Below are positions 2,834 to 46,956 of a DNA stretch of 47,011 nt, piece after piece; position 1 is the first letter of the stretch, and every line of letters starts with the position of its first letter. The notes below the pieces were generated by a model. That model was not told where the DNA came from and ran no database searches. It saw only the letters and a list, made by a program, of their open reading frames with translations. The position numbers and the translations under genes are program-made. The stretch covers positions 1-47,011 of the IMG/VR virus record IMGVR_UViG_3300003322_000275; one strand, written 5' to 3'. Source of the stretch: a virus.

Positions 2834-3493
2834 ATGCCAAACAAGCCGAAAACCAACTACAAAGCGCGTGACGGTGAGATTCACGCGAAAGACACCTTTC
2901 AGACGCCCGCCTACGCGCTTGATCCCCTACTCCCCTATATTGAGCGCTTTAGGACCGTGTGGGAGAGCGCACACGGTCATGGGTATCTTGTACGAGCGCT
3001 TACGCGCGCGGGCAAAGACGTTATCGCAAGCGATTTAGCAACACAGGGAGATTTTTTCAAGCTTAACGTGCGTGACCCGATTGGCGGCAGTTTGAGTATT
3101 TTTGATTGTAATGTGGTACAAGTTACAAACGTACCATTTTCGCTTAAATTTAGGTGGATTGCGGATAGCTGTAATCGCCGTCGTGCGTTCGCACTCTTAG
3201 TGCCCTCTGATGTCTTGTTCGCTGGCGAGCGAGTCCAACCGTTGATCAAACGATACAACCTGGAGATGCTTGTACCAAACAAGCGGATCAACTATTGCAC
3301 ACCCGAACGCGGATGGGATGGATCATCGGCGCAAATGCACACCAGTTGGTTGACATACGGACTCAATATCGGTCGTCTGATTACCTTTGTAGAGATCAAG
3401 CCGCGACCGGAAGAACCGTTAACGCGCAACCTCTTAGACTGGAAGCCCGATCGCCCGAATCAACTGCGTATTTTTCGGCCCGGATCACTGTGA
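2834..3493 (+). CDS. Phage adenine-methyltransferase fold protein with altered motifs
   Basis: A 219-residue protein that follows the plan of phage N6-adenine methyltransferase-like proteins: an N-terminal DTFQTPAYALDPLLPYI, an AdoMet-binding motif I region WESAHGHGYL (usual form WEPAxGxG), an acidic motif II (VIASDLATQGDF), a motif IV region and a C-terminal target-contact part. The motif IV position reads TNVPFS where an active enzyme would have N-P-P-[FY]. Motif I has also lost its usual proline and cysteine. I therefore call it a methyltransferase fold that may be inactive or may have changed specificity. It starts directly after the zinc-protein stop and is the last gene before the non-coding RNA region. 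Confidence 0.65.
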   Translation: MPNKPKTNYKARDGEIHAKDTFQTPAYALDPLLPYIERFRTVWESAHGHGYLVRALTRAGKDVIASDLATQGDFFKLNVRDPIGGSLSIFDCNVVQVTNVPFSLKFRWIADSCNRRRAFALLVPSDVLFAGERVQPLIKRYNLEMLVPNKRINYCTPERGWDGSSAQMHTSWLTYGLNIGRLITFVEIKPRPEEPLTRNLLDWKPDRPNQLRIFRPGSL

Positions 3494-3522
3494 AATACAC
3501 GTTATTTTAACCAGATTTTAAC

Positions 3523-3551
3523 TTGACAATCCTCTGCGAATCGATTATACT
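3523..3551 (+). promoter_or_regulatory. Consensus promoter for the non-coding RNA region
   Basis: TTGACA (3523-3528), exactly 17 bases, then TATACT (3546-3551). An AATCGATT palindrome (3539-3546) touches the -10 box and resembles the operators of the other cassettes. Transcription would begin near 3557-3560, right where the first long RNA stem starts. Confidence 0.85.
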
Positions 3552-3897
3552 ACGTGCAAGTGATAGACGTTCGGGCGCGACTCATAATCGCCACAACGAT
3601 AGATCAACAACAGTAGACGCTCTGCGGGAATCTGTTGCGTCTATCACACGTCGTTACACATCACAGTATCATGCGGTGTCGCTCACCGTTCCGGTACACC
3701 ATAGTCGGTAGCTGCGAATGCGGGAGTCCGGCGTGTGTAACGACGAGCCGCGCATTGACGAGTAGCCACCTCGAAGCCGGAGCTAAACGGGCGCGGTACA
3801 AAGCGGATCGATCGGGTTGAGTCACGAGTAAGATGTTATGCGAGTCAGGCGACTCCACGTGTCACGCGCATAGCACACCCGATCGATCTATAAATGA

Positions 3898-4023
3898 TAC
3901 GCAGTAGCTCAGTGGGAGAGCGCGACTCGGCGCAACCGAGCGTACAAGATCGCTATGACTTTTGCTGGATACTAAAGCGGCTAATAGCGATCGGTGTTGG
4001 TTCGATTCCAACCTGCGTAACCA
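3898..4023 (+). tRNA. tRNA-like body with the anticodon arm replaced
   Basis: The 7-bp acceptor stem is TACGCAG/CTGCGTA, with discriminator A and an encoded CCA end (4021-4023). The D arm is GCTC-AGTGGGA-GAGC and the T arm is GTTGG-TTCGATT-CCAAC, all canonical. The total of 126 nt is far too long, however. Between the D arm and T arm lie a short hairpin CTCGG-CGCAA-CCGAG and a 9-bp stem GATCGCTAT/ATAGCGATC (3948-3956/3984-3992) enclosing 27 nt. No normal 5-bp/7-nt anticodon arm can be drawn, so no amino acid is assigned. A CTA triplet just before the right arm could mimic an anticodon only if an intron were removed. It sits inside the large structured RNA, so it may serve for processing or as a structural scaffold. 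Confidence 0.6.
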
Positions 4024-4175
4024 TGATCTTTGGCCCGAACACGATCGAACGTGAAAACAGAAGCGCCGTAGGCAAACCGAACAACACGTGACTTTAGGTA
4101 GGCGTGCGGGAATCGTATCGGCGGATCGTAAGTAGGACGCGAGAAGGCAGACCGTCATGTAACCACATCAAACGA

Positions 4176-4320
4176 TCTCTACTCGTATCTGGAGTCAAAA
4201 ATCGGTGTGTATACCGCTACACGTATCTATGCGCGATGACGATCGCTAAATCGGCAGCATTTGAGTGCTGCGATCATAGACACAACATCGATCGCGGTTG
4301 ACTCCAGATACGAGTAGAGA
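4176..4320 (+). repeat. 22-bp perfect inverted repeat closing the last RNA domain
   Basis: The left arm 4176-4197 (starting TCTCTACTCG) is the exact reverse complement of the right arm 4299-4320. The 101 bases between them contain smaller hairpins such as GCAGCA-TTTGAG-TGCTGC. It is the longest perfect stem in the window. A T5 run lies seven bases after the right arm, so the element could also help end the RNA before the gene at 4362. Confidence 0.9.
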
Positions 4321-4361
4321 ACAGAAGTTTTTGTAATCGAGCATGAAAGGAAAACAATCTC

Positions 4362-4934
4362 ATGGCAAAGAAAGTTGACGAGCAGACTCAGATGGTTGAA
4401 TGGCTACGGCTTGCGGATGCTGCCGAACGTACGGGCAAATCGCAGGCGACGATCCGAAGCGCGCTCCGCAAGCATGAGATCTTCACTGCGAATTCGGATG
4501 CGTTTCGCGAGATCAGGCCGATGTTGCAGATGCCCGATGGCTCGTTTCAGCCTGGTGGGGGGCACAGCAGCATCGTTGTACGCAGCGATCTCTTGCAACA
4601 GTGGGCCGAAGTTGCCGACCAGCGTGCGACGACTCAGCGATCGGTGGGTACAGTCTACAAGCTCAATCTCCGCGATCAGCCGTTGGACGCCAATCAGATC
4701 GCAGGTGTGCGTGCGGCTAACGATCAGATCGCGCGCGACGGCAGCACGATGACTCTCCAACAGGCCGTTGAAGTCTTGCTGGCACCGTTCGATGTCAACC
4801 TGCGGCGCGCGTTTGAGCGCAAGCCGCGTGAAGAGTCGAACGCGAGCGAAGAGTCGCATATCGACACGGCGACTCCAAACACCGATAACGTTCAACAGGT
4901 TGCTGCCTTTGAGTTTGAGCTTGTCGAAGGCTAA
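4362..4934 (+). CDS. Putative helix-turn-helix protein
   Basis: A 190-residue protein without a firm family match. Residues 14-35 (RLADAAERTGKSQATIRSAL) form a plausible helix-turn-helix. The centre and C-terminus are polar, and the last 45 residues are rich in E, S, N and D (low complexity). The start at 4362 has AAAGGAAAA upstream. It stands alone between the structured RNA and a strong terminator, so it is either read from the RNA promoter or translated from the same transcript. Proximity suggests a regulatory or RNA-associated role, but that is inference. A 188-residue frame on the opposite strand is a shadow of this gene. Confidence 0.7.
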   Translation: MAKKVDEQTQMVEWLRLADAAERTGKSQATIRSALRKHEIFTANSDAFREIRPMLQMPDGSFQPGGGHSSIVVRSDLLQQWAEVADQRATTQRSVGTVYKLNLRDQPLDANQIAGVRAANDQIARDGSTMTLQQAVEVLLAPFDVNLRRAFERKPREESNASEESHIDTATPNTDNVQQVAAFEFELVEG

Positions 4935-4953: not shown

Positions 4954-4991
4954 CTAAAAGCACTTGACATTCGATCGTCAAGTGCTTTTAG
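4954..4991 (+). terminator. Bidirectional stem-loop terminator
   Basis: A perfect 15-bp stem CTAAAAGCACTTGAC/GTCAAGTGCTTTTAG with an 8-base loop. The outer part of the stem is A4/T4, so it can act in both directions. It closes the unit formed by the structured RNA and the gene at 4362. Confidence 0.75.
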
Positions 4992-17417: not shown

Positions 17418-18199
17418 AACTCACGATCATACATGGCGATTGCGTTGAAAAGACACGATCGATCGCGGATAACTCGATTGACGTGATCTTTAATGATCCG
17501 CCGTATGGCACCGGAAACAGATCGAACAAAACACCCGATTACGATCAATCCGAGTACATGGCAACACGCAACTGGCAGAACTTCTTTGCCGATTGGGATG
17601 CACCAGTTGATCCCATCTTTACTGAACTGTGGCTACGTGAAGCATGGCGCGTGCTTAAACCGCAAGGATCGATCTGGATTTGTGGAACGTTTCACAACAT
17701 ACCAGATGTTGCACTGATCGCACGGAGTATCGGTTTGTTTACGATCCAGTGGGTAGTGTGGTGTATACCCAATTCGTTTCCACATCTTGCTGGACAAAAG
17801 ATGGCAAACGCCAATCAAACGCTCATATGGGCGCGCAAATGTAAAAAACAGCGCCATGTGTATATGTACGAACGCGCGAAAGTATGGAACGGTGGCAAAA
17901 ATCTACGTGACTATTGGGAGATCAACAACGACGGATCGGTGTGCAACGAGTTACCATTCTTGCGGGATTTTCCTGCGAAAAAACCGCGTAAGCTGATCGC
18001 ACGTGCGCTAGACATCAGTTTGCCCGATGATCGGCCTACGCACGTGCTGGATATGTTCGCAGGATCAGGTACAACCGGGGACGTATGCCGATCAATCAAT
18101 CGGTGGATACCCCAGTCGCGTCAACATCCAATCAATTGCACGCTGATCGAAAAAGATCGATCCAACATCGATCGCTTTATCATACCGAGGTTTAAGTAA
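17414..18199 (+). CDS. N4/N6 DNA methyltransferase (beta class)
   Basis: A 261-residue enzyme. The catalytic DPPYGTG (residues 28-34) comes first and the AdoMet-binding FAGSGTT (about 220) last, the order of beta-class enzymes such as CcrM. Between them LREAWRVLKPQGSIWICGTF is a classic motif. Target recognition would lie around residues 130-190. The sequence does not reveal the site, but the remarkable surplus of GATC words in this genome makes an adenine methylase acting on GATC or a related site a sensible test. It starts inside the regulator gene and ends on the polymerase start. Confidence 0.9.
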   Translation: MKLTIIHGDCVEKTRSIADNSIDVIFNDPPYGTGNRSNKTPDYDQSEYMATRNWQNFFADWDAPVDPIFTELWLREAWRVLKPQGSIWICGTFHNIPDVALIARSIGLFTIQWVVWCIPNSFPHLAGQKMANANQTLIWARKCKKQRHVYMYERAKVWNGGKNLRDYWEINNDGSVCNELPFLRDFPAKKPRKLIARALDISLPDDRPTHVLDMFAGSGTTGDVCRSINRWIPQSRQHPINCTLIEKDRSNIDRFIIPRFK

Positions 18200-20790
18200 T
18201 GCAACCTAAAGCGCCGGGTGCGGATTGCGCCAACTGTCCACTGCGATCACAGCCGTGTGTCCCGTCGTCCAAGCCAGATGGCCTGATCCGCTTTGCCGTA
18301 GTTGGGGAGGCGCCGGGTGCGGAAGAGGTTTCAGCCGGAGTATCGTTTGTCGGCCAGTCCGGTAAGCTGCTTCGCAAGGCGATCGAATACGTGGGCTTGA
18401 ATCCTGATCAGGGTTTTTACTCTAACGCGGTTTTGTGTCGCCCCCCCGGCAACAAGATCGATCAGTATCCGCAAGCCGTTCAGGCGTGCTCAGAACGTCT
18501 CAGACGCGAGATTACGGACGTGCCTAATGTTCCGGTCGTTTTGGCCGGAGCAACCGCGCTACGGGCAGCACAGCGCGTTCTGGGGGCATCCGGCGATCCA
18601 TCTATCATGCGCGCTGCTGGACACTGGATTGACACGCCCGATCGGAGCTTTCTCCCCATCTTGCACCCTGCGTTCGTGCTACGCTCACCCGACTACATCG
18701 GCCCGTTTCTCAACAGCTTGCACGCGCTCAACGTTGATCGCTCAAAAGATTGGCTTGCGACGAAATATGATGTACTCGATACCTATGAAGATGTGCTGCT
18801 TGTTACAAGCAATTTTAACCACAAAAAGCATGTTATCGCGTTTGACGTTGAAACAAGCGGCTTAAACTGGTATACAACACATGATACCGATCGGGCGCGT
18901 TTGCTGTGCTTTGCGTTCTCAGCATGGGATGAACATGCGATCGTCATTCCGGGTACATTGTTTGATGACCATCGCGTGTGCAAAGCAATCGAAGATATGC
19001 TAAGACAGTGTACGTCTGTTGCACATAACGGCAAATTTGATCTGAACGTGTTATCGCAGTACGGTATTCATGCCGATCTGAGCGATGATACCATGCTCAT
19101 GCACCACCAACTTGACGAGAATCCTGGTGGACACGGCTTAAAAACGCTCGCATCGATCTATCTTGGTGTACCCGATTACGAAGCGCAGTTGGTTGATAAA
19201 CACTTTCGTGGTGTTGATCGCGCAAAGCGTGACTACTCAACTATCCCGCGCGATAATCTCTACAAATACGTCGCAATCGACGTATGTACTACGCTGGCAT
19301 TGCATCGCGTGTTCAAATCGATGCTTGCAGATCAAAAACTTATTGAACCGTATACAATAGCGCGTGATGGATCGAACATGCTGCAACGCGCTGAACAGCG
19401 TGGCTTTTTGATCGATCGTGTGTATCTTGAAAGAGTACGGCTAATGATCGGTGCAAAGTTACGTGATGCGGAATACATGGTACAGGATGCCGCAAGTACC
19501 GTAGCACGCAAATATCTCGACAATGTACCAGTAACACAATGGACTCACATTCGTGGTATTGATTGGATCAAGACGATTGATCAATATCGCGCTGTATTGG
19601 AAAAGATCGCCAATGGGATCAATATCGCAAGCTGGCAACAAATGCAAGTCTTGTTTTATGACGTACTAGGACTCAAGCACGGTAAAAAACTCGGATATAA
19701 AACAAAACCGCGATCAACCAACGCAGAGGCGCTTGACAGCTTGCTTGAAGCCGCGCCAGATAATAAACTCGTGAGAACGCTCAAAGAGTTTCGCAAGATT
19801 GATAAAATTCGCTCAACCTATGTTGAGCCGATCTTGCGGCTGATTGATCGTGATGATCGCATGCACATTAACTTTAAGATACATGGTACGGAAACATACC
19901 GCCTAAGCGCCGCCGATTCGCAGCATGGCATTCCACGGCCAACCGACCAATACGGCCAGATGATTCGCGGCGCATACATCGCGACGCCCGGCTATAAGCT
20001 GGTGATGTGTGATTACTCGCAAGGCGAATTACGAGTCTTTGCCGCGCTGAGTGGTGAGCCGTTTTTGCTAGAGACGTTCGATCGTGAAGAGGACCCGCAC
20101 GGCAATCTGTGTCTTGCATTGTTTGGCGATCATCCACGCTTGCGTGGCATGACCGCAGCCGATTACGACAAGGCAACGGCTGAATGGCGTCTGCCGGAAA
20201 TCGAAGGATACACACTAAAAGATCAAAAAGCGTTGTGGAAACACTACCGCACGATCTCAAAAAACGTCATGTTCGGTGCTGGTGTGTATCTTGGTGGTGC
20301 ATCCGGTATCGCTGCGATGATCCCCGGCGGTCAAGTTACTGCACAGCAGCTAGAGCCGGTGATCAAACGTATGAAAGCAAGTATGCCGATCGCGGCGCAA
20401 TGGCAACAAAACCAATTCCGAATCGCGCGCGATCAGGGTTATGTCGAAAATCGTTTTGGGAATCGGCGGCGCTTTCCGTTCATCACATCCGAAACGCTTG
20501 ACGAAATACGCAAGGCAAGCGTCAACGCGCCTATCCAATCGAGTCTCTCACAGTTGACACTTTTAAGTGCGATTCTTTTTGATGATCTCTATCGCGATCG
20601 TGACTGGCATGTACTACACTTAGTACACGATCAGATCATTACAGAAGTACCAGACGCGCAAGCCGACTATGCGGCAGCGTGTCTACAGCAAGCAATGATT
20701 ACACTCGGTATGAGGTGGTTTCCAGAGGTTAAATGGAAAGCTGACATCGAAATTCAAGATCGATGGTATCAAGAAAGGCCAGAACTATGA
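18199..20790 (+). CDS. Uracil-DNA glycosylase / family A DNA polymerase fusion
   Basis: An 863-residue protein. Residues 1-180 are a family 4 uracil-DNA glycosylase: cysteines C10, C13, C80 and C97 for a 4Fe-4S cluster, GEAPGAEE (36-43) and HPAF (156-159). Residues 210-380 are the 3'-5' exonuclease (AFDVETSGL with D216/E218, HNGKFDLN, YVAIDVCTT). The polymerase follows: motif A DYSQGELR (D605 on), motif B KNVMFGAGVYLGG (about 688) and motif C VHDQ (about 809-812). Two departures are notable: isoleucine to glycine in motif A, and glutamate to glutamine in motif C (usually HDE). This is the main replicase. Fusion to a glycosylase domain is known from some phages such as SPO1. Confidence 0.93.
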   Translation: MQPKAPGADCANCPLRSQPCVPSSKPDGLIRFAVVGEAPGAEEVSAGVSFVGQSGKLLRKAIEYVGLNPDQGFYSNAVLCRPPGNKIDQYPQAVQACSERLRREITDVPNVPVVLAGATALRAAQRVLGASGDPSIMRAAGHWIDTPDRSFLPILHPAFVLRSPDYIGPFLNSLHALNVDRSKDWLATKYDVLDTYEDVLLVTSNFNHKKHVIAFDVETSGLNWYTTHDTDRARLLCFAFSAWDEHAIVIPGTLFDDHRVCKAIEDMLRQCTSVAHNGKFDLNVLSQYGIHADLSDDTMLMHHQLDENPGGHGLKTLASIYLGVPDYEAQLVDKHFRGVDRAKRDYSTIPRDNLYKYVAIDVCTTLALHRVFKSMLADQKLIEPYTIARDGSNMLQRAEQRGFLIDRVYLERVRLMIGAKLRDAEYMVQDAASTVARKYLDNVPVTQWTHIRGIDWIKTIDQYRAVLEKIANGINIASWQQMQVLFYDVLGLKHGKKLGYKTKPRSTNAEALDSLLEAAPDNKLVRTLKEFRKIDKIRSTYVEPILRLIDRDDRMHINFKIHGTETYRLSAADSQHGIPRPTDQYGQMIRGAYIATPGYKLVMCDYSQGELRVFAALSGEPFLLETFDREEDPHGNLCLALFGDHPRLRGMTAADYDKATAEWRLPEIEGYTLKDQKALWKHYRTISKNVMFGAGVYLGGASGIAAMIPGGQVTAQQLEPVIKRMKASMPIAAQWQQNQFRIARDQGYVENRFGNRRRFPFITSETLDEIRKASVNAPIQSSLSQLTLLSAILFDDLYRDRDWHVLHLVHDQIITEVPDAQADYAAACLQQAMITLGMRWFPEVKWKADIEIQDRWYQERPEL

Positions 20791-36120: not shown

Positions 36121-36378
36121 ATGAAGGCACGACGCTTTTCAACACTCGATAAGATCAGACTGACACCTAATCAGTGTAAAACCACGGCGGAGTTAAACGG
36201 GCGCGGTACACACATGTGGAGCGCGGGAGTCAAAATCAATACACCCGATGGTATCGGTGCGCTTGACAATGACGTGTACACCAACGATCAGACCGTATAC
36301 GTCTTTTTCGAGAATTTGTTAGATGTCAAAACATACAACATCGATCAAGTATCACGTATCGTCAGGAGTCGATCATGA
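36121..36378 (+). CDS. Moron protein of unknown function
   Basis: An 85-residue protein, first of two genes behind a regulated promoter and against the late direction. The start at 36121 follows GGAG. Beta segments (WSAGVKINTPDGIG; TVYVFFENLLDVKTYNI) suggest a small compact fold. Its stop overlaps the next start as ATGA. I do not recognise it. Confidence 0.72.
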   Translation: MKARRFSTLDKIRLTPNQCKTTAELNGRGTHMWSAGVKINTPDGIGALDNDVYTNDQTVYVFFENLLDVKTYNIDQVSRIVRSRS

Positions 36379-46752: not shown

Positions 46753-46956
46753 TGCCAACCTTGCCAACCTTGCCAACCTCCCTATATATTTAATTCTCTG
46801 ACTCTAATTCTTAACAGCTTACACTGCTATCCAACCCCACCTAATAAAAATAATAAATATACATATGGTTGGTAAGGTTGGTAAGGTTGACCGGACGCAT
46901 AACAAAAAGATCAGCTTACACGCTATCGTTGCCAACCTTGCCAACCTTGCCAACCT
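46753..46956. repeat. Three iteron clusters flanking AT-rich DNA, origin or partition site candidate
   Basis: Three exact copies of the 9-mer TGCCAACCT in tandem (46753-46779), then about 85 AT-rich bases, then three inverted, slightly diverged copies (AGGTTGGTA type, 46866-46892) and three exact direct copies again (46930-46956). There is no reading frame of quality here. Tandem 9-bp iterons next to an AT-rich stretch are the hallmark of iteron origins. A partition or packaging site is the alternative. Confidence 0.75.

Follow-up and report, generated by a model that had tools for sequence, protein, structure and literature searches.

A probable large structured non-coding RNA with a non-decoding tRNA-like body in an orphan phage

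What is encoded in the roughly 780 nucleotides that lie between a methyltransferase gene, ending at position 3493, and a gene for a 190-aa protein in a phage genome? The window analyzed here, the whole 47,011-base stretch of DNA, is a virus record carrying genes for terminase, portal and tape measure. Its early genes (VapE-type helicase-primase, SNF2 helicase, exonuclease and UDG-PolA polymerase) are on the plus strand, its structural genes (terminase, portal, protease/capsid and tape measure) on the minus strand, and the VapE-type gene is a near neighbor of the locus. In the polymerase gene (18199-20790), a uracil-DNA-glycosylase domain is fused N-terminally to DNA polymerase A, and the 9-mer TTGCCAACC forms two short arrays (46753-46779 and 46929-46956) close to the contig end. 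Few structured RNAs that lack a known function are, to our knowledge, as large as GOLLD, ROOL and ICP1 RNA, and the original prediction placed the locus beside the first two of these. Our analysis indicates that it most likely encodes an orphan large structured phage RNA of the GOLLD, ROOL and ICP1 RNA style that belongs to neither GOLLD nor ROOL.

The structural case starts from the following elements.

3560-3569/3638-3647, plus strand: stem A, 10 bp, perfect, closing domain A (3560-3647)
3649-3660/3734-3745, plus strand: stem B, 12 bp, perfect, closing domain B (3649-3745) with two enclosed hairpins
3747-3753/3791-3797, plus strand: stem C, 7 bp (6 Watson-Crick, 1 G-U), closing domain C (3747-3797)
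3806-3817/3877-3888, plus strand: stem D, 12 bp, perfect, closing domain D (3806-3888)
3569-4040, plus strand: wheel, closed by an 8-bp stem of GUUCGGGC (3569-3576) and GCCCGAAC (4033-4040)
4041-4175, plus strand: linker from wheel to 3' domain, weakly structured in the model fold
4176-4198/4298-4320, plus strand: stem E, 23 bp, perfect, with branched interior, closing the 3' domain E (4176-4320)
3613-3632, plus strand: motif GTAG-N3..7-TGCGGGARTC, copy 1
3708-3728, plus strand: the same motif, copy 2
4098-4114, plus strand: the same motif, copy 3

All five closing stems that had been proposed are present, stem E being 23 bp long and not 22, and single-base gaps do separate A from B and B from C; such adjacency is not significant by itself, nor, taken alone, is the enclosing stem of 8 bp or stem C of 7 bp. 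The predicted region of long-stem domains, approximately 780 nt in length, is nevertheless borne out by the perfect stems of at least 10 bp with 20-150 nt between their arms, of which the 47 kb hold 14, four of them at the RNA locus. Among 2000 dinucleotide shuffles of the region, 1811 contained no such stem, 178 contained one and 11 contained two, and none contained more. The minimum free energy (MFE) of the full-length RNA corresponds to a z score of -5.9 on the plus strand (-5.8 in a separate run) versus -3.6 on the complement, and 28 windows of the same length elsewhere in the record range from -3.05 to +0.93. Since 200-nt sliding windows over the region for the most part show no exceptional stability, the signal is located in the long-range closing stems. 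The repeated motif occurs three times in the RNA, nowhere else in the window and in 0 of 2000 shuffles of the region, statistics that are generous because it was spotted post hoc. By inspection, copies 1 and 2 take similar positions in the fold, with an internal loop UAG/GARU beside a short GC hairpin.

In the model fold, nearly all pairs of stems B, C, D and E, of the acceptor, D and T arms of a tRNA-like body and of the enclosing stem have pairing probabilities of approximately 0.9-1.0 (0.98-0.99 for the enclosing stem). The predicted spokes of the wheel are a small hairpin, an alternative hairpin involving the 3' arm of A, domains B, C and D, and the tRNA-like body. Base 3569 belongs to both stem A and the enclosing stem, so that full formation of one excludes, as modeled, that of the other. 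The MFE fold keeps the enclosing stem and loses A, which would thus be either an alternative to it or one half of a pseudoknot; in principle, A could be pseudoknotted with 7 of the closing base pairs.

The transcription signals around the RNA are these.

3504-3551, plus strand: promoter with upstream TTTTAAC repeats, -35 and -10; start position inferred from spacing
3523-3528, plus strand: -35, TTGACA
3539-3546, plus strand: palindrome AATCGATT within this promoter
3546-3551, plus strand: -10, TATACT
4362-4934, plus strand: 190-aa gene, downstream of the RNA
4954-4991, plus strand: terminator-like hairpin after the 190-aa gene, 15 bp with A4/U4 edges (model fold; absent from a simple terminator scan)
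3523, 5021, 9833, 28338, 36062, 37388, 39184 and 39981, all plus strand: near-consensus promoter family

A promoter had been noted just ahead of the RNA, and TTGACA-17-TATACT indeed matches the consensus at 11 of 12 positions; its spacing predicts a transcription start at about 3558, some 7 nt past the promoter and two bases ahead of stem A. At least six other promoters in the phage, mostly preceding small plus-strand genes, share the form TTGACA-ATCGATT...RTGRTAY, of which the promoter of the RNA is a looser relative and the least typical member. The palindrome AATCGATT, which the window contains 13 times where 1.8 copies would be expected, falls in or near the spacer of most family promoters, so that the family resembles a regulon controlled by one repressor. 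Many of its members are inserted within the minus-strand structural block. As a bait for kin phages, the promoter family returned one chance match.

A simple scan found no terminator between the RNA and the 190-aa gene, and given the hairpin at 4954-4991 behind that gene, a common transcript is probable: the two are probably co-transcribed, and the RNA appears to head the transcription unit. The 190-aa protein matches no family above cut-off (HTH_17 is a weak hit below it, E 0.006), its gene retrieved no relatives from IMG/VR when used as bait, and its single-sequence AlphaFold model (pLDDT 41.5) is unusable.

The same arrangement could conceivably mean that there is no separate RNA, and that the locus is a long structured 5' leader acting in cis on the 190-aa gene, which it might control through a switch between stem A and the enclosing stem, for instance. 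Consistent with this, locus and gene share a strand, only 41 nt and no detected terminator separate stem E from the start codon, the ATG is preceded by a ribosome-binding-like AAAGGA, and stem A excludes 3569-3576/4033-4040. However, 780 nt with a full tRNA body and an encoded CCA exceed by far the needs of known leaders, and in the fold no strong stem hides the start codon or its ribosome site. We thus consider a leader unlikely, and return to the free-standing RNA and its most distinctive part.

3898-4023, plus strand: tRNA-like body (3898-4020, plus CCA at 4021-4023)
3898-3904/4013-4019, plus strand: acceptor stem, 7 bp
3907-3910/3918-3921, plus strand: D stem
3922-3995, plus strand: two hairpins in the place of the anticodon arm (5 bp with a 5-nt loop; 9 bp)
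3996-4000/4008-4012, plus strand: T stem, with T loop UUCGAUU

That a tRNA body sits in the chain, as had been noted, is supported by the Rfam tRNA model, which scores 41.7 bits (E 2.6e-7) in the region 3480-4380, and by A73 and an encoded CCA; neither an Rfam scan of the whole window at gathering score nor ARAGORN called it. Acceptor, D and T arms and CCA are as in a decoding tRNA and the anticodon arm is not, since no solution with a 5-bp anticodon stem, a 7-nt loop and U33 was found when the variable region could span 3-21 nt and one stretch could be excised. With its anticodon arm swapped for two hairpins, the body cannot decode. This property goes beyond the original prediction, as do the 8-bp stem round most domains, the unit formed with the 190-aa gene and the kinship of the promoter to a repeated family.

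A search with the tRNA-like pattern returned a single IMG/VR contig, L235, whose body has by inspection an identical D-arm sequence and a first hairpin with loop CGCA, a similarity that need not reflect common descent. L235, L128 and other phage tRNA bodies likewise have closed acceptor, D and T arms and extra hairpins that replace the anticodon arm; unlike in the window, no comparable multi-domain RNA was recognized around the body of L128. The first 1740 bases of L235, a 100-kb phage contig, also hold a sub-threshold tmRNA-like match (422-605, 29 bits), one tRNA, two odd tRNA-like bodies and a 13-bp perfect closing stem (279-415).

These bodies invite the question of whether the tRNA-like body itself is the true product, excised as a decoy for a host tRNA-cleaving defense or a tRNA-binding enzyme, with the flanks serving as processing signals. 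Its complete acceptor, D and T arms with CCA, the replaced anticodon arm and the similar non-decoding bodies of L235 and L128 would fit such a decoy. The strongest statistical signal, however, comes from the long stems outside the tRNA body, and excision would break the wheel, which makes this reading improbable.

Long perfect inverted repeats close to a VapE-type helicase-primase gene could also act at the DNA level, as a replication origin or a recombination or packaging site. This is very improbable, as the locus has no iterons and no skew switch, 60-100 nt lie between the long arms, the plus strand folds better than its complement and the tRNA body has sense orientation.

If the locus acts as RNA, does it belong to a described family? 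Scanning the whole window at gathering score returned nothing from Rfam, and the region 3480-4380 at E <= 10 returned the tRNA and one chance lncRNA fragment. Retron, group I/II intron, tmRNA, RNase P and self-cleaving ribozyme families gave no Rfam match at E <= 10. GOLLD is recognized by a match to its model (the conserved 3' region), by its setting in a phage or prophage with a length of about 800 nt and a tRNA near or inside, and by a homo-oligomeric cage; ROOL by a covariance-model match and by covarying stems P1-P19 with the pseudoknot P10. The suggestion of a GOLLD/ROOL-like RNA therefore divides in two. The locus is in a virus record, is about 780 nt long and has an internal tRNA body, and its description as a structured phage RNA that is large, non-coding and built round such a body is well supported. 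Membership is not supported, as the covariance-model search that had been proposed, run on 3480-4380 and repeated alongside control genomes, detected neither model at E <= 10, a result to be taken with caution since control genomes also gave nothing above cut-off (below-cut-off matches only for GOLLD; no matching positive control for ROOL). A divergent GOLLD or ROOL, which size, phage location and tRNA body would allow and the unmatched models, even so poorly controlled, speak against, is thus less probable still than a DNA-level element.

The resemblances are nevertheless considerable. As described in the excerpted text of PMC12286853, GOLLD RNA (RF02032) is phage-encoded, about 800 nt long and rich in stems, with 5' and 3' domains and a linker that sometimes carries phage tRNAs; the RNA described here, at about 780 nt, shares with that description the phage origin, the many stems, the two domains and an internal tRNA body. 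It differs from GOLLD in lacking a covariance-model match and a tRNA island, and in that its tRNA body is non-decoding and forms a spoke of an enclosed wheel. ROOL RNA (RF03087) appears in the same excerpts as large, multi-branched, phage-encoded and often near tRNAs, and our RNA would resemble it in the first three respects and in a possible pseudoknot. In contrast, the ROOL model does not match, and the excerpts mention no tRNA body inside ROOL.

Other large phage RNAs are orphans without assigned function, as is the present one: the two lncRNAs of phage K (PMC9241854) and the orf-less RNA of about 800 nt that is the most abundant transcript of phage ICP1 as seen by RNA-seq (PMC7567579). Put through the same tests, the ICP1 gap gave a z score of -2.4, one perfect stem of at least 9 bp and no Rfam family at gathering score. 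ICP1 RNA has no tRNA body and its expression was shown, whereas ours is predicted from sequence; yet the ICP1 gap folds less strongly, which makes the locus studied here at least as convincing by sequence as an expressed case.

Searches by exact patterns and blast, which a diverged RNA could escape, detected no homologue of the RNA among phages, plasmids, IMG/VR or GTDB genomes. DNA similarity was restricted to T-arm matches to tRNA-Trp genes in phages and to the promoter region in plasmids. In the latter, 3500-3531 (TTTTAACCAGATTTTAACTTGACAATC, the upstream promoter part) matches L299:3001-3032 at 30 of 32 bases (E 6e-3), ahead of nifB in a Candidatus Chlorohelix (Chloroflexota) plasmid, a weak hint at the phage host. 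As a two-copy pattern, the repeated motif had one match in IMG/VR, within coding sequence, and 59 in genomes, those inspected by script being coding or repeats. Among the relatives, the RNA search covered the 41 longest that were retrieved by terminase, and in these both the RNA and the VapE-type gene are absent. The VapE-type protein, used as bait, found no relatives in IMG/VR. With terminase relatives there at 41-49% identity, polymerase relatives at 23-28% and replication proteins that have distant relatives only, the phage is an orphan. The absence of the RNA from Rfam suggests that further families of this kind go unnoticed because their carriers are orphan phages.

No frame between 3493 and 4362 carries a coding signal, in agreement with the original prediction: ORFs inside this interval score -0.22 to +0.03 per codon, compared with +0.09 to +0.19 for held-out genes of at least 100 aa, and the longest (98 aa) is on the minus strand, overlapping the antisense of the tRNA body. 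The locus thus shows two features expected of large structured phage non-coding RNAs in general, a lack of coding and structure beyond chance. Decayed coding sequence or chance is extremely improbable, given the missing coding signal and the stem excess, even though the 23-mer 3778-3800 (domain C) matches 36188-36210 in an 85-aa gene (36123-36378) at 22 of 23 bases, for at the protein level the similarity goes no further than this stretch. GCGGGAGTC, a component of the repeated motif of the RNA, also follows that 23-mer, at 36223.

Single-sequence evidence therefore gives good support to a phage RNA that is large, structured and non-coding and has a tRNA body in its chain. We favor, with somewhat better than even confidence, the fuller reading that it is a probable scaffold or decoy made together with the 190-aa gene. 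The phage promoter would direct transcription from about 3558, and one transcript would carry the RNA and the following gene. The RNA would fold into a multi-branched 5' wheel (3569-4040), with the non-decoding tRNA-like body as one spoke, followed by the linker and the long 3' hairpin domain (4176-4320). The 23-bp duplex, as an RNase III-type target, would be a likely processing point for releasing the RNA, and the ends of the tRNA-like body would be likely points for RNase P and tRNA 3'-end enzymes; alternatively, release from the downstream mRNA may never occur. The tRNA-like body could supply ends that are processed and protected, and could serve host tRNA-binding factors as a handle. From this anatomy we infer that the RNA is a scaffold or decoy and makes use of tRNA-processing enzymes, its most likely role being that of a stable, abundant RNA during infection; assembly into RNA particles, also raised originally, is conjecture. 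More tentatively, the locus may represent a new class of large RNA, built around a non-decoding tRNA spoke in a closed multi-stem wheel, made along with a partner protein and serving as a scaffold or decoy that engages the host tRNA machinery. An unrelated large RNA with a non-decoding tRNA body would suggest a connection of such RNAs with host tRNA processing or tRNA-targeting defenses.

Many other enlarged phage tRNA bodies differ from that of the window in being a tRNA with a short removable insert. Removing one anticodon-arm stretch, mostly of 38-64 nt, yields a perfect decoding tRNA in 61 of 132 rows, compared with 1.6% when the middles are shuffled; since some rows repeat the same gene or join two tRNAs, the distinct genes number roughly 45. 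Examples are the following.

L186:474-591, L126:5001 (minus strand), L143:2120, L206:2477 and L225:361, with others among L114-L235: insert-bearing tRNA genes

The window's own body is outside this model, as no single removal restores its decoding arm. A literature text search for insert-bearing phage tRNAs found no paper, and the inserts may be short phage tRNA introns of a class not yet described. They often lie between nucleotides 28 and 30; once they are removed, the 5-bp anticodon stem is perfect again and its loop normal. Most of the removable stretches carry a common hairpin followed by ACAGCAA, and a second set ends in GTTACTT.
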